Assembly (NCBI RefSeq): GCF_000422845.1
Contig: NZ_AUGV01000019.1
Coordinates: 1 to 64,000, forward strand
Source: Oceanobacter kriegii DSM 6294
GTDB lineage: Bacteria; Pseudomonadota; Gammaproteobacteria; Pseudomonadales; Oceanobacteraceae
Direction of reading: 5' to 3'
Length of the DNA: 64,000 nucleotides
Shown here: positions 1,984 to 11,275 of the stretch, piece after piece
How positions within the stretch are numbered: the first letter of the stretch is position 1
Layout: every line of letters starts with the position of its first letter
Notes under the pieces: generated by a model
The model's input: the letters and a program-made list of their open reading frames with translations, nothing else
Database searches by the model: none
Told to the model about the DNA's origin: nothing
Program-made: the position numbers and the translations under genes

Positions 1984-2931
1984 TTAATAGCCCTTCGCTG
2001 TATCCACCGGATGCAGCAAGGGCTTGCCTTCCAGGATGTGACGACCATTGTCCACCAGCTGGCCAAGAATGGCTTTGCCGGAGGCCGCTGAGGCCATGTG
2101 TGGGGTAACCACCACGCCTGCGGTGCTCCACAGCGGGTTGTTTGTATCCAACGGCTCTTGCGGGAACACATCCAGCACTGCGCCACGCAGATGGCCGCTT
2201 TCCAGCGCGGTAATCACGTCTGCTTCGTTGAGGTGTTCACCGCGACCACAGTTCATCACCACCGCACCTTGCGGTAGCTGCTGAAACAGCGACTGGTTCA
2301 AAATGCCGTCGGTTGCAGGAGTTAATGGCAGCAGGTTCACCAGCAGATCACAGCGTGACAGAAATTCCGGCAGGTCTTCCTCGCCCCAGAGGCAGCTGAC
2401 CTGATCGACCCGTTTTTCCGAGCGCGACCAGCCCGCCACCGGGTAGCCGAATTTGGCCAACCCTTCGGCAATAAAGCAGCCCAGCTGTCCCATGCCCATC
2501 ACGCCAATGCGCATCTTGCCCGCACGACGCTGTGGGTGCAGTTTCCAAACCTTGTCGGCCTGTTGCGCCAGTGCCTTGTCGAAGTCGCGCTGGTAATGCA
2601 GTACACCCCACAACACGTATTCCAGCATGCCCTGCTTCTGGCCTTCATCGACCACCCGACACACTGGCAATCCGGCTTGCATCAGGCTGGCCGGAATGTG
2701 ATCCACCCCTGCTGATACCGCTTGCAGCAGTTTCAGATTGGGACAGGTTTGCAACAGGTCTTGTGGTGGATACCAACAGGCGGCAACGTCGGCGTTAACC
2801 GCTTCCGGGTCATCCAGACGATAGCAGGTAACGTCGTCGTACCAGCTTTCCATGCGGCTGATCAGCCGGTCGGCAAAGCCGCTGTCGTTGGTGGCGAAAA
2901 CAATCTTCAGCGGTGTGTGATGGGTTTTCAT
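1984..2931 (-). CDS. D-2-hydroxyacid dehydrogenase (GhrA-like glyoxylate/hydroxypyruvate reductase)
   Basis: This 315-residue protein belongs to the NAD(P)-dependent D-isomer 2-hydroxyacid dehydrogenases and is closest in layout to GhrA. Its nucleotide-binding motif is GVMGMGQLG, near residue 142. The catalytic Arg lies in NCGRGEHLN, the Glu in FPQEPL and the His in TPHMASAAS. The family reduces glyoxylate, hydroxypyruvate or related 2-oxoacids. It is the last gene of the minus-strand operon that starts at gbuA, 21 bp after the aldolase gene, so it probably acts on a 2-oxoacid released by that aldolase or by the oxygenase route. The exact substrate is inference. The Shine-Dalgarno is weak (GAG eight bases before the ATG). 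Confidence 0.85.
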   Translation of the reverse strand: MKTHHTPLKIVFATNDSGFADRLISRMESWYDDVTCYRLDDPEAVNADVAACWYPPQDLLQTCPNLKLLQAVSAGVDHIPASLMQAGLPVCRVVDEGQKQGMLEYVLWGVLHYQRDFDKALAQQADKVWKLHPQRRAGKMRIGVMGMGQLGCFIAEGLAKFGYPVAGWSRSEKRVDQVSCLWGEEDLPEFLSRCDLLVNLLPLTPATDGILNQSLFQQLPQGAVVMNCGRGEHLNEADVITALESGHLRGAVLDVFPQEPLDTNNPLWSTAGVVVTPHMASAASGKAILGQLVDNGRHILEGKPLLHPVDTAKGY

Positions 2932-2952
2932 AGTGAACTCGGTTGCAGGCGC

Positions 2953-3705
2953 TCAGTGTTTGTAGGAAGGGTCGATACGGTCCAGCTTACGCAACCAGGC
3001 CTTCCAGACCAACTGGCGTTCGTGCTCTACCCCACGAAATTGGTCGCAGACATGACGGGCCAATTGCGCTTCGATCGGCTGGACCGGTGTCAGCGCCGCT
3101 ATTTGCGCCGCTGCCAGTTGAATGTCGCAAGCCTGATTGAGGGTGTACATAATCTGAAAGGCATCGGCGATGGTTGGCCCTACCGACAATAGTCCGTGGC
3201 TGCGCAGGATCATGGCAATGTTGCTGCCCAACGACGCCTGAATGCGCTCGCGCTCTTCCAGATTGAACGCCACCCCCTCGTAATCGTGGTAACCAATGCG
3301 CTCGTAAAACTCGGCACTGATCTGGTTCATTGGCAGCAGGCCATGCTCACAGGCAGCCACAGCCATGCCCGGCAAGGTGTGGGTGTGAATCACACAATGG
3401 GCGTCGCCGCGCGCCATATGTACTGCACTGTGAATGGTAAAACCGGCCGGGTTATAGGCCTGATCACCGTCCACCACTTCACCCTTGAGATTCACAACGA
3501 CGAGGTCGCTGGCGCAGATTTCCTCGAACAGAAAACCGAACGGATTGATCAAAAACCGGGGCTCTCCACCACCCGGCAAGCGCACCGAGAAGTGGGTATA
3601 AATGGTGTCGTCCCAGCCGAACATGGCGGCCAATCGGTATGCGGCAGCCAGCTCTTCGCGCAGTTGCTGCTCGCTTGCCTGTGGGTGTTGAGTTACATCA
3701 GACAT
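2953..3705 (-). CDS. Class II aldolase/adducin-family protein
   Basis: At 250 residues this is the normal length for the zinc-dependent class II aldolase/adducin fold (fuculose-phosphate aldolase type). The metal ligands are visible as the HTH of CVIHTHTLPG and the later His in ILRSHGLLSVG. A candidate catalytic acid sits in SAEFYERIGY. The family cleaves or decarboxylates hydroxy-acid or sugar-phosphate substrates. It starts 4 bp after the ABC transporter gene in the same operon. No sugar kinase is nearby, so an unphosphorylated hydroxy-acid substrate is more likely than a sugar phosphate. That is inference from context. Confidence 0.83.
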   Translation of the reverse strand: MSDVTQHPQASEQQLREELAAAYRLAAMFGWDDTIYTHFSVRLPGGGEPRFLINPFGFLFEEICASDLVVVNLKGEVVDGDQAYNPAGFTIHSAVHMARGDAHCVIHTHTLPGMAVAACEHGLLPMNQISAEFYERIGYHDYEGVAFNLEERERIQASLGSNIAMILRSHGLLSVGPTIADAFQIMYTLNQACDIQLAAAQIAALTPVQPIEAQLARHVCDQFRGVEHERQLVWKAWLRKLDRIDPSYKH

Positions 3706-3709
3706 GAGC

Positions 3710-5260
3710 TTATCCCTGGTTAGCGGGCTCGGTCACCAATCCCATAAAGTGGCGAATACGTTGCAACTGAGGACTGACAACCGAGCTATCACGAATGGCA
3801 TCCGGAGCAGCATCAACCTGCACCACACCATGTTCCATCATCATTACCCGGTCAGATACCTGCAGGGCAAACTCCATTTCGTGAGTCACAATCAGCATGG
3901 TCAAACCGGCCTTGGCCAGATCCTGCATCACCTTCAGCACCTCACCGACCATTTCCGGGTCCAGTGCCGAGGTGGGCTCATCAAACAGAATGATGTCCGG
4001 GTCCAGCGCCAGGGTACGCGCAATGGCCACCCGCTGCTGCTGGCCACCGGACAGCTGATGCGGGTATTTATCGGCGTGGGCCAGCATGCCCACCTGATCA
4101 AGCAGATATAACGCCCGTTCGCGAGCCAGCTGTTTCGATTCAATCTGGCCGTGGTAGCGCGGTGCCAGCATGACGTTTTCGGCTACGGTGTAGTGCGGGA
4201 ACAGGTTAAAGCTCTGGAACACCATGCCAATGCGGCGAATGCCGTTGCGCAAGGTGGTTCTATCGGCGTGTTCTCCACCACGAATATAGCCCTCACCAAA
4301 CAGCACCACTTCGCCACTGTCGAGGGTCTCAAGCTGGTTGATGGTACGAATCAGGGTGGTTTTGCCCGAGCCTGACGGGCCAATGATGCTGATCACCTCG
4401 CCGCTGGCGACGTTCAGGTTGATGTCTTTCAGCACCTGATGGTCACCGTAGGATTTCGACAGGTGCATCAGATTCAGCGCTGGCGGCTCTCCCGCTCGCA
4501 GGCTTGTGGGTTTGCTGATCGCCCCCTTGCCTTGCAAGCTGGTGCGCAGCGCTGCCACGGTGCTGTCAGACAAAGTGCCCGGATTGCGGGAAGGAATGTC
4601 CATGCGACGCTCCAGCCACTGCAACACCGCGCCGAAGATAGTCACAATCAACACGTAGTACACCGCCACCGCAAACAGGGTTTCCAGCACCAGAAAGTTT
4701 TGGGCATACAGCCGTTGGCCCGTCATCAGCAGCTCCGGCAGCGAAATCGCCGACACCAACGAGCTGAGTTTAATGATGGTGACGTACTCGTTGATCATGG
4801 TGGGCAGCGAGATGCGGAACGCTTGCGGGATCACAATCAGACGTTGAATACCGGCAAAACCCAGCGCCAGTGCGTGGCCCGCTTCACGCTGCCCTTTGGC
4901 AACAGAAATCAGGCCACCGCGGTGGATTTCGGCCATGTAAGCGGCTTCGGTCGCAACCATACTGACCAGACCAGCCACAAACGGAATGCCCAGTACCGAA
5001 CCGGCCGCCGGAAACAGTTGCGGCAGGTTGTACACAAACACCAGCACCACCAGCAGCGGCACACTGCGGAAAAACCAGATATACACACCCGCCGGTACAG
5101 ACAACCAGCGGTGCTTCGACATTTTGGCAATCGCCAACAGGAAGCCAAGTACCAGTCCAATGCCCCATGACAAGGTGCTCAGCACCACCACGGTGACACA
5201 TGCCTGCCAAAACGACGACATGGTGAACAGCGAGAAAAAATAGTCCCAGTCCAGACTCAT
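3710..5260 (-). CDS. Fused permease-ATPase of a polar amino-acid ABC transporter
   Basis: One 516-residue polypeptide joins two transporter parts that are usually separate. Residues 1-230 are a HisM/GlnP-type permease with about five membrane helices and the EAA-type loop around GHALALGFAGIQRLIVIPQ. Residues 265-510 are a GlnQ/HisP-type ATPase, with Walker A GPSGSGKTT near 291, signature LSGGQQQR near 402 and Walker B ILFDEPTSALDPE near 423. A single fused permease implies a homodimeric channel. The cognate binding protein is encoded 45 bp upstream. A clear Shine-Dalgarno (CAGGAG) precedes the ATG. Uptake of an amino-acid-like, probably guanidino-bearing substrate is inferred from the operon. 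Confidence 0.9.
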   Translation of the reverse strand: MSLDWDYFFSLFTMSSFWQACVTVVVLSTLSWGIGLVLGFLLAIAKMSKHRWLSVPAGVYIWFFRSVPLLVVLVFVYNLPQLFPAAGSVLGIPFVAGLVSMVATEAAYMAEIHRGGLISVAKGQREAGHALALGFAGIQRLIVIPQAFRISLPTMINEYVTIIKLSSLVSAISLPELLMTGQRLYAQNFLVLETLFAVAVYYVLIVTIFGAVLQWLERRMDIPSRNPGTLSDSTVAALRTSLQGKGAISKPTSLRAGEPPALNLMHLSKSYGDHQVLKDINLNVASGEVISIIGPSGSGKTTLIRTINQLETLDSGEVVLFGEGYIRGGEHADRTTLRNGIRRIGMVFQSFNLFPHYTVAENVMLAPRYHGQIESKQLARERALYLLDQVGMLAHADKYPHQLSGGQQQRVAIARTLALDPDIILFDEPTSALDPEMVGEVLKVMQDLAKAGLTMLIVTHEMEFALQVSDRVMMMEHGVVQVDAAPDAIRDSSVVSPQLQRIRHFMGLVTEPANQG

Positions 5261-5305
5261 ACTGGCTCCTGTATTACAGCAAATGAAAACGTCAGAACGC
5301 GGGGA

Positions 5306-6133
5306 TTATTCCGCCGCCAGCAGGTTGTACTTCTTCAGCAGCTCGGGGTAATCGCCATCGGCGGTGATTTCAGCCAGCGCGCTTTGCAGCGCCTGCTTCA
5401 GCTCGGCGTTGCCCTTTTTCACGTAGATACCCAGGGTTTGCGGGTACACCAGATCCGGCGAGCTGATCTCAATGCGGCCACGGGTACGCTCGGCGAACAT
5501 CATTGCGGCACCGGCAATTTCCAGCTGGGCATCGACGTTACGGGACAGCAGTGCTTGCGAAACTTCCGGTGCCGACGGGAATTCACGAATGGTGATGGCT
5601 TCTTTGCCATTCGGCACACAGTAGCTGGCCGACAGCTCCGTCAACTGCTTGACCCAGGCGGTACCCTGCTGCAAACCCACTTCCACGCCACACAGGTCTT
5701 CCTTGGTTTTGGGCTGAATAGCGCTGCCCTTGTTCACCATGATGTAGGCACCTGTACGGGCGTAAGGGATGGCTTCGGCCTGTTTCTGACGCTCGTCAGT
5801 GACGTACATGCCCGAGATCACCGCATCAAACTTGTTGGCACCCAGACCCAGAATCAGGCTGGTGAATTTGGTATCCACAAAGCTCGCCTCGGCACCCAGT
5901 TTGGCGGCCAGCAAGGCCGACATTTCCGGGTCAAAACCAACTACTTTGTCGCCCTCGTAGGATTCGAACGGTGGGTAGCTGATTTCCATGCCCACTTTCA
6001 TGGTGTCGCCGCTCAGCAGAGGATCGGCAACTACCGGTGAAGACAGCATCGCCGCAGGGGCCAGCACGGCCGCCATGCCCAGCGCCAGCGTCGCCCGACG
6101 GAACAGGGATTGGGTTTTATCAGTGTTCAACAT
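5306..6133 (-). CDS. Periplasmic amino-acid-binding protein of ABC transporter
   Basis: This 275-residue protein belongs to solute-binding protein family 3. A cleavable signal peptide (hydrophobic LALGMAAVLAPAAML, predicted cleavage near VVADP) precedes the mature domain. The family hallmark is MEISYPPFESYEGDKVVGFDPEM, in which aromatic and acidic residues contact the alpha-amino acid part of the ligand. Two cysteines (DLCGVEV and ASYCVPNG) could form a disulfide. The gene has a strong Shine-Dalgarno (GGAGAGTCATC before ATG) and lies just upstream of the fused permease-ATPase, with which it should form one importer. The ligand is not determined. Confidence 0.9.
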   Translation of the reverse strand: MLNTDKTQSLFRRATLALGMAAVLAPAAMLSSPVVADPLLSGDTMKVGMEISYPPFESYEGDKVVGFDPEMSALLAAKLGAEASFVDTKFTSLILGLGANKFDAVISGMYVTDERQKQAEAIPYARTGAYIMVNKGSAIQPKTKEDLCGVEVGLQQGTAWVKQLTELSASYCVPNGKEAITIREFPSAPEVSQALLSRNVDAQLEIAGAAMMFAERTRGRIEISSPDLVYPQTLGIYVKKGNAELKQALQSALAEITADGDYPELLKKYNLLAAE

Positions 6134-6179
6134 GATGACTCTCCTTCATCAAGAGTTTGGTTTTCAAAGTCAGTGGGTT

Positions 6180-7292
6180 TCAGCGGGTTGATGCAGTGCA
6201 TTCAGGGTCGAGGCTGTTGGCAGCCTTCTTTTTCATATGGCCAAAGGTGGCCACCCCACGAGCCCGTTGAGGCAGCGATAACTCGCCTGCCGCCACCCGG
6301 TCGCGCAAGTAGGAATAGGTTTGCAGGGCCTGACTGTACATATGATCGCCAATACTAAGCGCTTCGTACTCGCTCGCCTCAGCCTCCTGCAAGAACTGTG
6401 GCAATGGCTGAATTTGCGTGTGGTAATCGCAGGCAAAGAACAACGGGAATGAGTAACGCTCGTCAGAGACCTTGCGAACCCGGTGCGACGTGGCGACAAA
6501 CTGGCCGGCGGTCATCACTTCGAGCATGTCGCCAATGTTGATCACAAAGGCTTCTTCGCCCTGCTGTGATACCGGTGGCGCATCGATCCAGTCGCCGTCT
6601 TCGTTCAGCACTTCAAGTCCTGGCTGGTCTGCCAGCAACATGGTGAAGCACTCATAGTCGGTATGCGCACCAATACCGGGCGCGTCTTCGGCCGAAGCAT
6701 CGTATGGATAATGAATCAGCCGCAGCTTTGATGGCGGGCACGTCACCATTGCATCGAAATAGTGCTCATCAAGGCCCAATGCCAGTGCAAATCCACGAAA
6801 CAAGGTACGACCGAAGGCAAACACATCGTCGTAATAAGCCAATACCGGTTGTTTGAAATCCGCCAGCGGCGGCCATTCGTTGGGGCCAATCAGAGGGGTA
6901 TTGGCTTGCACCAGTGGATGATCCAGCGATGCCTGAAAGCCGACATCAAAGGCTTCTTTCAGGTCCGGTTTGGCCGAGCCGTAGATTTCCTCTCCCCGTG
7001 GCACAAATCCCTTGTGACTGGCCGATGAGCCAATGTAGTAGTCCATCTTGGCTTCAAACGGCTGGGCAAAAAACGCCTTCGCTGCCGCCCGGATACCCGC
7101 CATGCGCTGAGCGGAAATACCATGACCCGTGACGTAGAAAAAACCCACCTCACGAGCGGCCTGACCCAGTTGCCCGGCCACCGCCTGACGCTCGTCCAGT
7201 GAATCACTGAACAGGCCCGCCACATTGATCACCGGCAGCGCCTGAAACGCGCCTTTGTTCGCTGCACTGCTGTTACTCGTATTTGTGGTCAT
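6180..7292 (-). CDS. Isopenicillin N synthase-family 2-oxoglutarate/Fe(II)-type oxygenase
   Basis: This 370-residue non-heme iron oxygenase has an N-terminal DIOX_N part (LPVINVAGLF, VGFFYVTGHGI) and a C-terminal double-stranded beta-helix. The iron facial triad is visible as HTD in GIGAHTDYECF and the later His in VATSHRV. The 2-oxoglutarate-binding Arg-x-Ser is in DERYSFPLFF. Members hydroxylate or desaturate small molecules; homologues include isopenicillin N synthase and ethylene-forming enzyme, which also oxidises arginine. I chose the ATG at 7292, not the longer frame, because it forms an ATGA overlap with the stop of the preceding isomerase gene. Acting on a guanidino substrate is inferred from the ureohydrolase in the same operon. 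Confidence 0.85.
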   Translation of the reverse strand: MTTNTSNSSAANKGAFQALPVINVAGLFSDSLDERQAVAGQLGQAAREVGFFYVTGHGISAQRMAGIRAAAKAFFAQPFEAKMDYYIGSSASHKGFVPRGEEIYGSAKPDLKEAFDVGFQASLDHPLVQANTPLIGPNEWPPLADFKQPVLAYYDDVFAFGRTLFRGFALALGLDEHYFDAMVTCPPSKLRLIHYPYDASAEDAPGIGAHTDYECFTMLLADQPGLEVLNEDGDWIDAPPVSQQGEEAFVINIGDMLEVMTAGQFVATSHRVRKVSDERYSFPLFFACDYHTQIQPLPQFLQEAEASEYEALSIGDHMYSQALQTYSYLRDRVAAGELSLPQRARGVATFGHMKKKAANSLDPECTASTR

Positions 7293-8140
7293 GCTGATTG
7301 GCTCCATTGATCGAATTGCTGGCGCTGACGTTTGGCCATCCAGGCATTGAGCTGCCAAAGATCGGCCACCGGCACATTGGTAAACGGCAAGTGGTGCAAA
7401 TAGCCATCACGGCCAAATTCCGGCGTCAGGGTTGTCTTGCTGAACCCCCGGGCCTGTTGGCTGGCCCAGACGCGCTGCCAGAAGGCTTCAAAGAAGGCCA
7501 GCTCATTGGCATATTCCGGTGCTGCCGGATGAGGCAGCTGCGGCCCCTGTGGATAACCTGCCCGAGCCTGAATGTGGTCAACCCGTTCTATAAATGGCTG
7601 CATCGCCTGCCAGTCCAGGGGGTGATCCAGCAGTCGCTCGGCTACCAGCACCCAATGACTGATATCGGCGGTAAAACGCATATCCGGCAGCTGCGCCAAC
7701 AACTCCAGTGTCAGCCATGGGGAATACAGGGAAGTCGCGCGATGGGTTTCAAACAGACAACGAACTCCGGCCTGCTGCGCCAGCTCCAGCGCCGCACCAA
7801 AGAAATCCACTTGCATCGAAAGCGACCAACGGTCGTTGCCCGGCAGAATGTTCACCAGCTCTGGGCTTAATTCGGCCGCTTTCGGCAGCATGTCTCGCAG
7901 TCGCTGCAGATGCTGTTGCGGGCCTTCGGACTGATCCGGAATCACGTCGCCACCGCTGAACAAAATAGCGATGTAGCCCAGGTCGTCGCTGCGCAGTCGC
8001 TGTTGTAGCTGACGTCGTGCTGCTGCTTCCAGCGGCACCCGGGCTTCAATGCCCACACAACCAGCGGTGCGCAGTTCATCAACCACTTGTGGCCAGTCAT
8101 CCGTTACGCCCCACAGGGTGCGGTGTATATCCAGTTGCAT
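7289..8140 (-). CDS. Sugar-phosphate isomerase/epimerase-like TIM barrel
   Basis: This 283-residue AP-endonuclease-2/xylose-isomerase-like TIM-barrel protein carries typical strand ends: GCVGIEARVPL, LFETHRATS, FTADISHWVLV and HIQARAGYPQG. The acidic and His residues at these ends usually hold a divalent metal. Family members isomerise or epimerise sugars and hydroxypyruvate or act as lyases on polyols; the sequence does not fix the reaction. The start at 8140 is preferred because AGGAGG lies ten bases before its ATG. A longer TTG-started frame lacks such a site. Its stop overlaps the start of the oxygenase gene (ATGA), so the two proteins are likely made in fixed ratio. Confidence 0.78.
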   Translation of the reverse strand: MQLDIHRTLWGVTDDWPQVVDELRTAGCVGIEARVPLEAAARRQLQQRLRSDDLGYIAILFSGGDVIPDQSEGPQQHLQRLRDMLPKAAELSPELVNILPGNDRWSLSMQVDFFGAALELAQQAGVRCLFETHRATSLYSPWLTLELLAQLPDMRFTADISHWVLVAERLLDHPLDWQAMQPFIERVDHIQARAGYPQGPQLPHPAAPEYANELAFFEAFWQRVWASQQARGFSKTTLTPEFGRDGYLHHLPFTNVPVADLWQLNAWMAKRQRQQFDQWSQSA

Positions 8141-8167
8141 TTGCCTGTGCCTCCTGACTGACAACCG

Positions 8168-9118
8168 TTAGCGATAGCTCACACCCGGAAGCACACACAG
8201 CATTTCGTACAGCAGGTTGGCCCCCAGCTGAGAGGTGTTGCCGCTGACGTCGTACGGTGGCGACACTTCCACCAGATCACCGCCGATCAGGTTCAGGCCT
8301 TTGCACCCGCGAACGATCTCCAGCCCCTGAATAGACGTCAGGCCACCCACTTCCGGAGTGCCGGTGCCCGGCGCCCAGGCCGGATCGATGCCGTCGATAT
8401 CGAACGACAGATAGACAGGACCATCGCCCATGATTTCACACACTTGCGCCATCAAGGGCTCCAGCGACTTGTGCCAGCACTGCTCGGCGGTGATCAGTTT
8501 GAAGCCCTGATCCTCACCCCAGCGAAAATCCTCGGCGGTGTAACCCTGAGCCCGCTGGCCAATCTGCACCACCCGGTTGCAGTCCAGCAGGCCTTCCTCC
8601 ACCGCCCGGCGAAAAGTAGTGCCATGAGCGATTTTCTCGCCGAACATGTTGTCGTTGGTGTCGGTGTGGGCATCGATATGAATCAACCCAACCGGGCCGT
8701 GTTTCTTGGTCAGCGCCCGCAAAATCGGCAGCGTGACCGTGTGGTCACCGCCCATGGTGAGCGGAATCAGGTTGTAGTCGTTGAAGCGGGTGTAGTGTTC
8801 TTCGATCAGTTCGACCGACTTCAGCAAGCTGTAGGTATTGATGGCGACATCACCGATATCCGCCACCGACAACGAATCAAACGGCGCAGCACCGGTGGCC
8901 ATGTTGTAAGGACGGATCATCACGGACTCATTGCGAATCCCGCGCGGGCCATAGCGGGTGCCCGGACGTTGTGACGTGCCCACATCCAGTGGAATGCCCA
9001 CAAACCCCACATCCAGCCCGCTCAGGTCTTCCACAAGGGGCAAACGCAACATGGTGCCGCGACCGCCAAAGCGTGGCATCTCGTTTCCGCCCTGGGGCTG
9101 GTGCAGTACTTTTTCCAT
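8168..9118 (-). CDS. gbuA: Guanidinobutyrase-like ureohydrolase
   Basis: This 316-residue member of the arginase/agmatinase family hydrolyses a guanidino group to an amine plus urea. The binuclear manganese motifs are all present: GGDHTVTLP, DAHTDTND and SFDIDGIDPAWAPG. The N-terminus (LHQPQGGNEMPRFGG) and loop MFGEKIAHGTTFRRAVEEG resemble, as I recall them, the 4-guanidinobutyrase GbuA of pseudomonads more than agmatinase. The chosen ATG at 9118 has GAGG nine bases upstream. It is the first gene of a seven-gene operon and is divergent from a LysR regulator, as expected for inducible guanidino-acid catabolism. A guanidinopropionase or guanidine-hydrolase specificity cannot be excluded. Confidence 0.82.
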   Translation of the reverse strand: MEKVLHQPQGGNEMPRFGGRGTMLRLPLVEDLSGLDVGFVGIPLDVGTSQRPGTRYGPRGIRNESVMIRPYNMATGAAPFDSLSVADIGDVAINTYSLLKSVELIEEHYTRFNDYNLIPLTMGGDHTVTLPILRALTKKHGPVGLIHIDAHTDTNDNMFGEKIAHGTTFRRAVEEGLLDCNRVVQIGQRAQGYTAEDFRWGEDQGFKLITAEQCWHKSLEPLMAQVCEIMGDGPVYLSFDIDGIDPAWAPGTGTPEVGGLTSIQGLEIVRGCKGLNLIGGDLVEVSPPYDVSGNTSQLGANLLYEMLCVLPGVSYR

Positions 9119-9212
9119 CGTTACAAACCTCATATCAACACGATCAGCGCCCAGGCATCGGGCCGCTGCTGAATCATGTGTTCATCCTGAAAGAGCGCCC
9201 TTGCGGGTTAAA

Positions 9213-9241
9213 TATCAGAAGCGTGATAATCAGTTCATGAA
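9213..9241. promoter_or_regulatory. Candidate LysR-type operator between gbuA and its regulator
   Basis: The divergent spacer holds an interrupted dyad TATCA-N6-TGATA (9213-9228) and a second small palindrome TTCATGAA (9234-9241). Interrupted dyads between a LysR gene and its divergent target are the usual LysR binding place. Binding is inferred; the LysR gene starts 40 bp downstream. Confidence 0.45.
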
Positions 9242-9280
9242 TTGCTGAACTTAAATTTTCCGGGCGGGAGGCATTTGATT

Positions 9281-10177
9281 TTGGAAAAAGGATTTAATAT
9301 CAGGCACTTACAGGTTTTTTCGGCGGTCGTTCGGCATCAAAGCTATTCCGGCGCCCAGCAGGAACTGAACCTGACGACCTCCGCCATCAGCAATTACATC
9401 AGCGAACTCGAAAGTCGCACCGGCTTTGTGCTGTGCCAGCGTGGCCGAGGGGGTTTTGCGTTAACCGAGAAAGGCCAGCAGTTTCTGCAACAAACCCGCC
9501 GAACCCTTGATGAACTGGAGGAACTGGAGCGTCAGACCGAGGCCTTGAAAGACGATATGGGCGGTACTTTTCGCATGGCGATTCTGGATGCCACCAGCTC
9601 GGAACCGGCCTTGTCGATGCCCTCGGTGATTGCCCAATTCCGGCAGCAATTCCCCGCGGTGCATTTGAATTTGCAAATTCGCAGCCCCTACGAACAAGTT
9701 CATGCCATTCTGAACAATCAACTGGATTTTGCCATTGGCAACTACCCAACCACGGTCAATAACGTCATTACCGACCCCTTGTACCGCGAACAGCACTGGC
9801 TGTTTTGCAGCAGCCAACACCCGCTGTACCAGCAATCGCACATTCAGCGCGAAGACATCATGAACGCCGGCATTGTGACCCGCAGCTACTGGAACGCCGC
9901 CGACCTGAAGAAACGTGGCTTTCTGTACAGCACCGCCACCGTCGAGAGCATGGAAGCACAACTGATGCTGATTCTGTCCGGGCAATACATTGGCTATTTG
10001 CCCGAGCACTACGTTAATCAATGGGCTCACTCCAACCAGCTGCGCTGCTTGCTGCCGAGTGAATTTGGCTATCAGGCGGAGTTTTCGATGTTGTACCGAC
10101 GTGGCCGCAGCCGCGAGCCCTTTATTCGCAGCATGCGCGAACTGCTGCAAAAGCAGACCGCCGCACAAATGAAATAA
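9281..10177 (+). CDS. LysR-family transcriptional regulator (GbuR-like role)
   Basis: The protein has 298 residues. An N-terminal winged helix-turn-helix (LQVFSAVVRHQSYSGAQQ, then TTSAISNYISELE) is followed by a periplasmic-binding-like effector domain from about residue 90 (GTFRMAILDATSSEPALS). The TTG at 9281 is the favoured start because GGGAGG lies nine bases upstream; no ATG is available. It is transcribed away from the gbuA-led operon, the standard arrangement for a LysR activator of catabolic genes. The inducer is probably the imported guanidino compound or a breakdown product, which is inference. A metallo-beta-lactamase-fold gene follows on the same strand. Confidence 0.85.
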   Translation: MEKGFNIRHLQVFSAVVRHQSYSGAQQELNLTTSAISNYISELESRTGFVLCQRGRGGFALTEKGQQFLQQTRRTLDELEELERQTEALKDDMGGTFRMAILDATSSEPALSMPSVIAQFRQQFPAVHLNLQIRSPYEQVHAILNNQLDFAIGNYPTTVNNVITDPLYREQHWLFCSSQHPLYQQSHIQREDIMNAGIVTRSYWNAADLKKRGFLYSTATVESMEAQLMLILSGQYIGYLPEHYVNQWAHSNQLRCLLPSEFGYQAEFSMLYRRGRSREPFIRSMRELLQKQTAAQMK

Positions 10178-10291
10178 CGCCTGGCCCTTTTTGTGCCCCT
10201 CTTTGGTCGGATTGAGACCCCTTTGCTAACGCGGTCTACTGGACCACATGACTCAGAAAAGACCAATTGCGCCAGGAAAGGACTTCCAGCC

Positions 10292-11275
10292 ATGAGCACT
10301 CGCAGCACACCGGAAACCGGCAAATACCCTTGCCCACACAACCACCCACACGGGGTCTGGCAGCTGGATGCCGACTATGTGACCGAGGGCGCGGCGTGTG
10401 TCTATCTGATAGAGCAGGGCGACCGGCTGGCCATTGTTGAAACCGGTACTGTTCACAGCGTGCCGCACCTGCTCGACCAGATTCAGGTACTGGGACTCAG
10501 CCCGGAACAGGTTGACTATGTGATCCCAACCCACGTGCATCTGGACCATGCCGCCGGTGCAGGTCATTTGATGGCCCACTGCCCCAACGCCCGACTGGTG
10601 ATTCACCCTCGCGGGCGTGTCCACATGGTCGACCCAGCCAAACTGGAAGCTGGTACCCGGGCGGTGTATGGCGATGACAAATACGAGGCGCTCTACGGCA
10701 GCCTGATCCCCGTCGACCCACAACGCATCATTGAAGCCCCCGACCAGTTCTGCATCGACTTCCATGGCCGAACCTTCACCTTTATCGATACCCCCGGCCA
10801 CGCCAACCACCACTTTTGCGTACACGACAGCGGCAGCAACAGCATTTTCAGCGGCGACACCTTTGGCATTTCCTATCCGGTATTCGACACCCCCGATGGC
10901 CGCAACCTGCTGTTCGCCTCCACCACCCCGGTACAGTTCAACCCGGAAGCCTTACTGCAAAGCCTCGACACACTGGCAGCACTGGAGGCCGACTTCGTTT
11001 ACCTGACTCACTATGGCCAGATTCAACCCAGCCCGGATAACCTGCGCCAGCTGCGTGATTCAATTCACGCCTTCGTCGCCATCAGCAACGCCTTTGAGCA
11101 AACCACCACAGGCCGTAAAGACAAGATTGCCGCAGGCCTGAAAACCTGGCTGTTGGAACAAGTGCAGCAGTACTTTCCACACGTCAGCCCCGCACAAGCC
11201 AGCCACTGGCTGGCGCAGGACATTGAATTAAACGCCCAGGGGCTGGATGTGTGGTTGAGCAGGCGGGCGAGGTAA
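10292..11275 (+). CDS. MBL-fold metallo-hydrolase
   Basis: This 327-residue metallo-beta-lactamase-fold protein has the binuclear metal motif HVHLDHAAG. Further ligand histidines and an aspartate are in DTPGHANHHF, IFSGDTFGI and LTHYGQ. It resembles large glyoxalase II-like or lactonase-like hydrolases with a C-terminal helical extension. The start at 10292 has AGGAAAGGA eleven bases upstream. It follows the LysR gene by 114 bp and may belong to the same regulon as the guanidino-compound operon, where a lactamase or thioesterase step would be plausible. The substrate is unknown. Confidence 0.78.
   Translation: MSTRSTPETGKYPCPHNHPHGVWQLDADYVTEGAACVYLIEQGDRLAIVETGTVHSVPHLLDQIQVLGLSPEQVDYVIPTHVHLDHAAGAGHLMAHCPNARLVIHPRGRVHMVDPAKLEAGTRAVYGDDKYEALYGSLIPVDPQRIIEAPDQFCIDFHGRTFTFIDTPGHANHHFCVHDSGSNSIFSGDTFGISYPVFDTPDGRNLLFASTTPVQFNPEALLQSLDTLAALEADFVYLTHYGQIQPSPDNLRQLRDSIHAFVAISNAFEQTTTGRKDKIAAGLKTWLLEQVQQYFPHVSPAQASHWLAQDIELNAQGLDVWLSRRAR

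Follow-up and report, generated by a model that had tools for sequence, protein, structure and literature searches.

The window analysed here, the first 64,000 nucleotides (forward strand) of contig NZ_AUGV01000019.1 of Oceanobacter kriegii DSM 6294 (NCBI RefSeq assembly GCF_000422845.1), carries near its start a run of seven minus-strand genes, from position 9133 down to 1984, which we tentatively read as an operon for the catabolism of omega-guanidino acids. The first gene (8168-9133, likely ATG start at 9118) encodes a GbuA-like ureohydrolase of the arginase family (Pfam Arginase, 2e-89). It is followed by genes for a xylose-isomerase-like TIM-barrel protein (7289-8140, likely ATG start at 8140; Pfam AP_endonuc_2, 5e-12), proposed below as a guanidino-hemiaminal lyase, and a 2-oxoglutarate (2OG)-Fe(II) oxygenase (6180-7292, likely ATG start at 7292; Pfam DIOX_N and 2OG-FeII_Oxy) of a clade paired with such TIM-barrel proteins (hereafter TIM). 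The polar amino-acid ATP-binding cassette (ABC) importer takes up the next two genes, a family-3 periplasmic solute-binding protein (5306-6133; Pfam SBP_bac_3, 1e-31) and a fused permease and ATPase (3710-5260; Pfam BPD_transp_1 and ABC_tran) whose top NCBIfam model is GlnQ (267 bits, under the cut-off of 379). Last come a class II aldolase/adducin-family enzyme (2953-3705) of the PRK07044 subfamily (NCBIfam, 330 bits, above the cut-off of 207) and a GhrA-like 2-hydroxyacid dehydrogenase (1984-2931; 2-Hacid_dh_C, 2e-44; GhrA model 218 bits, under the cut-off of 403).

The intergenic gaps of 4-46 bp and the 4-bp overlap of the TIM and oxygenase genes make a single operon likely, and a divergent LysR regulator (9242-10177, plus strand; Pfam LysR) probably controls it. 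A preliminary description of this DNA had recognized the seven packed genes, their families and the divergent LysR gene, and gene positions, Pfam and NCBIfam bear it out. It had also included in the locus the metallo-beta-lactamase-fold (MBL) hydrolase at 10193-11275, which is not conserved with the operon. Both this hydrolase and a glutathione S-transferase were dropped as pathway members: by tblastn at E 1e-8 across the retrieved loci, the MBL gene matched nowhere beyond the window's own stretch, and the transferase gave one weak match elsewhere, in an unrelated locus.

The check set beforehand was co-occurrence in other genomes, and the neighbours are indeed conserved. All seven genes, in the same order and with the divergent LysR gene, are present in four other genomes (loci L062, L070, L071 and L164), so the gene set is not a chance assemblage. 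L070 and L071 belong to the same bacterial order as the window and L164 to another family of the same class; L062 is a Klebsiella pneumoniae record in which the ureohydrolase is split across two frames. Across these sets the oxygenase is 71-74% and the ureohydrolase 80-84% identical to the window's, while the LysR protein, divergent from the same operon, is 64-68% identical in L070, L071 and L164 and occupies the same place in L062. The L062 record itself (CP125156.1, 5.37 Mb) is labelled a Klebsiella plasmid, is evidently a chromosome, and has no listed coding sequence for several operon genes.

Reduced loci also exist, with only TIM, oxygenase and importer in L067-L069 and additionally an aldolase in L174. 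The TIM family is rare across the phylum, with matches at E 1e-30 in 9 of 398 genomes (the window's included), and common among the relatives of Acetobacter conturbans, with 30 of 100 genomes (A. conturbans included). Aldolase matches at E 1e-60 occur in 10 of 274 genomes of the class, and beyond the window the operon was seen only at G386 (the G508 context being left out). Eight other aldolase contexts in seven genomes (L165-L172; ~4.5-15.5 kb each, 5.7 kb for L171) show no operon neighbours, and the aldolase was dropped as a guide to the substrate.

The oxygenase keeps H210, D212, H270 and R279-x-S281, which we take to be the iron and 2OG ligands. Alignment confirms the motifs as intact, as had been claimed before: among 28 aligned rows H210, H270 and R279 are identical in all, D212 in 27 (the remaining row has X) and S281 in 25, with Ala in three. 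Among solved structures its best relative is 9ovh (218 bits), which bears the title ethylene/succinate-forming enzyme; the remaining listed chains so titled score 64-75 bits. Ethylene-forming enzyme and the plant homoarginine-6-hydroxylases are likewise 2OG oxygenases, from which guanidine is released after hydroxylation beside a guanidino nitrogen; they act on alpha-amino acids, and the portion of the source that treats them mentions no dedicated lyase (PMC11018352). A dedicated lyase, MgdL, does work with the methylguanidine hydroxylase MgdH of Vreelandella boliviensis, where hydroxylation next to the guanidino nitrogen is followed by C-N cleavage, giving N-demethylation, and where D49 and R51 of MgdL are essential (Sinn et al., 2025, October; PMC12508155). 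MgdH is further characterized as acting on methylguanidine and N,N-dimethylguanidine alone. In 14 of 14 cases, oxygenases 45-54% identical to the window's have as neighbour a family of proteins in which a D-x-R motif is invariant and matches the essential D49/R51; we take this family to be MgdL.

Oxygenase trees were built with 29 and 49 rows. In the latter, 32 TIM-paired oxygenases cluster together (98/84), and a second clade (100/99) comprises the 14 MgdL-paired enzymes and an orphan paralogue (L080); the window's enzyme falls in the TIM-paired, not the MgdL-paired, clade. TIM-paired L072 and unpaired L140 join apart on long branches, with a program warning. An oxygenase of this kind is found in 32 of 38 other TIM contexts, a count that owes something to selection since L033, L062, L063 and L064 were found through the oxygenase and L164 through the aldolase, the others of the 32 through TIM; the 20 contexts chosen by TIM (see below) are the cleanest. 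The 32 contexts contain no MgdL, and carry a polar ABC importer in 29 cases, an aldolase in 22 and GhrA in 22. None of the last three was found above the same bit-score thresholds in the 14 MgdL-paired contexts, of which L148 is only 6 kb long; below the thresholds, L142 has a GhrA-like match (31%, 118 bits) and eight of the 14 a generic ABC-ATPase (67-147 bits). An MgdL-like query had no match in the window's own genome at E 0.001, and none by tblastn in the window-derived loci holding a TIM gene.

MgdH-MgdL and the operon thus share a 2OG oxygenase, apparently of the same family, with a dedicated partner gene, and relatives of both are linked to the guanidine-carboxylase pathway. They differ in the partner, a TIM barrel in the operon and the D-x-R protein MgdL in the published system. 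MgdH-MgdL also lies within a guanidine-carboxylase operon, whereas the window's operon has instead an amino-acid-type importer, an aldolase, a dehydrogenase and a GbuA-like enzyme, and no riboswitch. The orphan paralogue named above is a second, MgdH-clade oxygenase of O. kriegii itself (G000:C1:253588-254601; L031, L080); the 19 kb retrieved around L080 hold no MgdL, TIM or guanidine-carboxylase gene, and a match to a NitT-type importer lies ~7 kb away.

The TIM protein is a xylose-isomerase-like barrel without homology to MgdL. Its residues E131, D159, H189 and E241 are invariant in 19 of 19 rows and presumably resemble the metal site of the xylose-isomerase fold. It has no sequence relative in the PDB at E 0.1; a predicted model made from two sequences (mean predicted local distance difference test score 69.5), which served for fold only, has 3-keto-glucoside and psicose epimerases as its nearest solved chains, with a glycoside beta-eliminase also listed. 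Such sugar epimerase and isomerase folds are what an ordinary isomerase would show, which is the part given to TIM in a linear scheme where the oxygenase hydroxylates a chain carbon, urea is taken off by the ureohydrolase, the aldolase splits the hydroxy-acid and GhrA reduces the oxo-acid, and the meeting of every named family in one conserved operon fits this scheme too. It fits less well with TIM genes in two guanidine-riboswitch loci, L064 and L073, whose retrieved stretches lack aldolase, GhrA and ureohydrolase, and with the grouping of the oxygenase with MgdL-paired enzymes.

Six TIM loci, L073-L078, stand outside the 32-context count. In L073 TIM lies beside Guanidine-I and Guanidine-II riboswitches and carboxylase genes. 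In L074-L078 it adjoins a gene read as desaturase-like (a match to Pfam FA_desaturase was confirmed for L074, L076 and L077, the three that were scanned), together with genes for a NitT-type importer; some of these loci also have a divergent MarR-like gene. The membrane oxygenase there may represent another type of oxygenase that shares this lyase. That TIM associates with different kinds of oxygenase as well as with guanidine genes fits a lyase for hydroxylated guanidino compounds. The preliminary description had left TIM as an isomerase without a role; as the usual partner of this oxygenase clade it is better read as an alternative guanidino-hemiaminal lyase. That the two proteins form a hydroxylase-lyase pair is likely. 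The broader proposition is somewhat less likely than not: that TIM typifies a second family of guanidino-hemiaminal lyases, unrelated to MgdL and teamed with MgdH-type (elsewhere apparently desaturase-like) oxygenases, in an undescribed pathway, common in Acetobacter relatives and scattered in other proteobacteria, which would oxidatively free guanidine from guanidino acids and thus be a source of the guanidine that riboswitches sense. A separate feature of L064 (6351-7133) and L073 (8598-9395) is an AHL-lactonase-like MBL protein of another subfamily near TIM, the two copies being 58% alike; it is perhaps a hydrolase of cyclic or acylated guanidine.

The Acetobacter-relative genomes, assumed to be acetic-acid bacteria, carry a version of the locus that was sampled as L033 plus 20 of the 29 other TIM contexts, the 20 being chosen by TIM alone. 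The oxygenase stands beside TIM in all 20, an amino-acid ABC importer, a TonB-dependent receptor and LysR occur in 19, and GhrA and the aldolase in 16 each; absence of the aldolase at L033 perhaps reflects a contig end. No ureohydrolase was seen in these contexts. A deiminase, related to a Kozakia protein that matches Pfam ADI and DDAH, is present in 14 of the 20, accompanied in 10 by a carbamoylase-type M20 enzyme whose Kozakia relative scores above the hydantoinase/carbamoylase cut-off. The deiminase-family enzyme stands in for the ureohydrolase in this variant, and the two steps, deiminase and carbamoylase, would equal the one-step ureohydrolase. Another deiminase-type locus, L123 on Kozakia baliensis plasmid pKB16680_2, has two M20 hydrolases, a PuuE-like deacetylase-fold gene, an aldolase, a TonB receptor and an amino-acid ABC importer; its 12 kb retrieved contain no TIM or oxygenase, although missing genes carry little weight in plasmid records such as this one, L063 and L118.

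Five loci of this group, L194-L198, keep oxygenase, TIM, aldolase and GhrA, and their retrieved stretches show no guanidino hydrolase. The sequence of steps first proposed, hydroxylation, urea removal, retro-aldol cleavage and reduction, fits poorly with them: since the pair can occur with aldolase and GhrA where no guanidino hydrolase is near, the linear scheme appears improbable.

The substrate type is suggested by three sets of residues. The window's binding protein and seven relatives (8 of 8 aligned outside the Acetobacter group) keep the Arg that presumably contacts the carboxylate and have Ile in place of the Asp that presumably contacts the alpha-ammonium group; the three reference chains in the alignment carry Asp. 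Alpha-amino-acid ABC importers have both Asp and Arg, and the window's protein departs from them at the Asp. At position 94 of the oxygenase, all 33 TIM-paired enzymes, the window's included, carry K (31) or R (2), and all 14 MgdL-paired ones S (13) or T (1); unpaired L140 has R and unpaired L080 has S. In TIM, Arg occupies position 34 in 30 of 30 loci that have a polar ABC importer and in one of nine that do not. All three residues follow the tree and so are not independent of it. Together they point to a carboxylate lacking an alpha-amino group, from which the substrate is inferred to be an omega-guanidino acid. Near the pair in L067 and L068 lies a gene whose protein contains the stretch GIPGVHTVELYRGL, and the L068 copy scores 879 bits (cut-off 500) against the model for 5-guanidino-2-oxopentanoate (2-ketoarginine) decarboxylase. 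Candidate substrates are 4-guanidinobutyrate and its hydroxylated forms, guanidinoacetate, creatine, methylated guanidinobutyrates, 2-ketoarginine and argininic acid.

The operon could instead take up and degrade another polar acid, the ureohydrolase being incidental. The oxygenase superfamily is very broad, and sugar-acid pathways often include class II aldolases, GhrA and sugar-isomerase folds. Against such a pathway stand the ureohydrolase in four and the deiminase in 15 of the 32 other TIM-oxygenase contexts, the riboswitch neighbours and the neighbour of the 2-ketoarginine decarboxylase family, and it is very improbable. Guanidino-acid catabolism with a dedicated importer, as the preliminary description had it, is supported, the importer consisting of the two genes for the binding protein and the fused permease-ATPase.

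The ureohydrolase is closest among solved structures to a guanidinobutyrase, 3nio (542 bits), followed by guanidinopropionase 3nip (315 bits) and by 7esr (157 bits), titled 'Probable agmatinase 2' and in our understanding a guanidinase; its earlier assignment as GbuA-like holds. To 3nio, the GbuA of Pseudomonas aeruginosa, it is 75.7% identical across the aligned part, and it conserves the carboxylate-capping Arg and the MFGEKIAHG stretch; R72 of GbuA can reach the substrate carboxylate, according to the relevant part of a published study (PMC9772407). The five operon ureohydrolases (the Klebsiella sequence being partial in this comparison) differ together from GbuA at 23 positions, among them A to T and V to T changes within the DAHxDxND motif. 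The retained carboxylate Arg argues for a GbuA-type enzyme, presumably acting on guanidino acids. Hydrolysis of free guanidine, as by GdmH (7esr/7oi1), had been considered because deiminase, ureohydrolase and carboxylase seem interchangeable across loci, and was rejected given the 157 versus 542 bits for GbuA and the retained carboxylate Arg.

Several loci connect the pair with free guanidine. In Paraburkholderia (L064) a Guanidine-I riboswitch and a CgdAB-carboxylase-AtzF-ABC operon follow immediately downstream of the TIM-oxygenase pair. The genome of O. kriegii itself encodes an importer, CgdAB and a carboxylase, and two Guanidine-I riboswitches and one Guanidine-II riboswitch accompany these genes (L137). 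This guanidine carboxylase pathway (gca, cgdAB, atzF), a likely sink for guanidine, is adjacent in L064 and linked in G899, G904, G885 and G890, but encoded outside the window, elsewhere in the same genome, in O. kriegii. A full-length guanidine carboxylase was found in 11 of 14 genomes or records queried, the window's genome included; two of the three misses are plasmid-only records. Among the Acetobacter relatives with TIM (21 queried out of 30), CgdB is present in 7 of 7 genomes without deiminase versus 4 of 14 with it (Fisher p 0.004, kinship ignored). In four of the seven deiminase-less genomes CgdB lies 22-24 kb from TIM, and in the other three the two are on different contigs; the sole deiminase-bearing genome that carries the two on a single contig has them ~940 kb apart. 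Riboswitch scans covered loci other than L067-L069. Release of free guanidine by the pathway is a possibility we hold tentatively, at slightly under an even chance. Beside the Guanidine-II riboswitch of O. kriegii, four matches to the TwoAYGGAY RNA lie between cgdB and the guanidine carboxylase gene (L137:8667-9699).

From the gene content and its conservation, the split of oxygenase clades by partner, the protein families and the genome's own guanidine genes, we infer reactions, a substrate and an order as follows. The ABC importer would take up an omega-guanidino acid, and the 2OG oxygenase would hydroxylate the carbon bonded to the guanidino nitrogen. TIM would split the resulting hemiaminal into guanidine and an oxo-acid, as in MgdH-MgdL but with an unrelated lyase, and the class II aldolase and GhrA-like dehydrogenase would use the oxo-acid carbon. 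The freed guanidine could pass to the riboswitch-linked carboxylase genes elsewhere in the genome. In a parallel hydrolytic arm, the GbuA-like ureohydrolase would remove urea from fitting guanidino acids, a role that the deiminase may take elsewhere. This LysR-controlled, two-armed operon as a whole is our leading interpretation, to be held tentatively as a nearly balanced call.

Its main rival places the two arms in series. There the imported compound would be an N-methyl or otherwise N-substituted guanidino acid, from which oxygenase and TIM strip the substituent as an aldehyde before the ureohydrolase, or deiminase plus N-carbamoyl amidohydrolase, turns a 4-guanidinobutyrate-like acid into an amino acid. 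The known MgdH chemistry is N-demethylation (PMC12508155). Five full sets, the window's among them, include a GbuA-type ureohydrolase, 10 of 20 contexts combine a DDAH/ADI-like deiminase with an M20 enzyme of the carbamoylase type, which jointly would do the work of that ureohydrolase, and the Klebsiella record has the operon and no full-length guanidine carboxylase. A series order is harder to square with L194-L198, which keep the pair, aldolase and GhrA. It also leaves aldolase and GhrA unexplained, neither being above threshold in the 14 MgdL contexts, where formaldehyde is expected. We regard it as unlikely, yet the strongest of the alternatives.

Other observations weigh against the two-armed interpretation itself. 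If the pathway invariably frees guanidine, a ureohydrolase in the operon is difficult to account for, and deiminase plus N-carbamoyl amidohydrolase likewise fit a guanidino acid rather than free guanidine. The Klebsiella record is the third of the carboxylase misses, no AtzF was found in the 19.9 kb around the carboxylase of O. kriegii, and a riboswitch scan of the window gave none at the gathering score. Only about three separate deiminase-less lineages in the tree lie behind the CgdB pattern. The Ile of the binding protein was not seen in the Acetobacter group, whose binding proteins belong to another line. The label 'MgdH-type' is based on a partner that resembles MgdL and on that partner's motif, the trees having been built from sequences other than the published MgdH and MgdL, and the six TIM loci L073-L078 lack such an oxygenase. 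Aldolase and GhrA, too, need not depend on the oxygenase-TIM pair: Komagataeibacter L118 has deiminase, GhrA, aldolase and ABC genes, with no TIM anywhere on that plasmid record and the nearest oxygenase relative (37%) ~100 kb off, and Caballeronia L117 has just LysR, the aldolase and a GbuA that shares 89.5% identity with the P. aeruginosa enzyme.

The pathway had been called undescribed. This stands for the operon, since full-text literature searches (most matches being at abstract level) returned no account of it, of a TIM-barrel guanidine lyase or of the guanidino-acid substrate class; it does not stand for oxygenase-plus-lyase chemistry on a guanidino nitrogen, which is already published (PMC12508155). 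Guanidine-sensing riboswitches are widespread and few enzymes are known to produce free guanidine, as stated in the parts of two accounts that deal with them (PMC11018352, PMC12508155). If the interpretation is true, the operon would be an overlooked natural source of guanidine, giving the riboswitch sensors a reason, and TIM would be a second enzyme fold for the cleavage of guanidino-hemiaminals. Real roles would also follow for proteins that currently carry the annotations 'sugar phosphate isomerase', 'agmatinase' and 'isopenicillin N synthase'.

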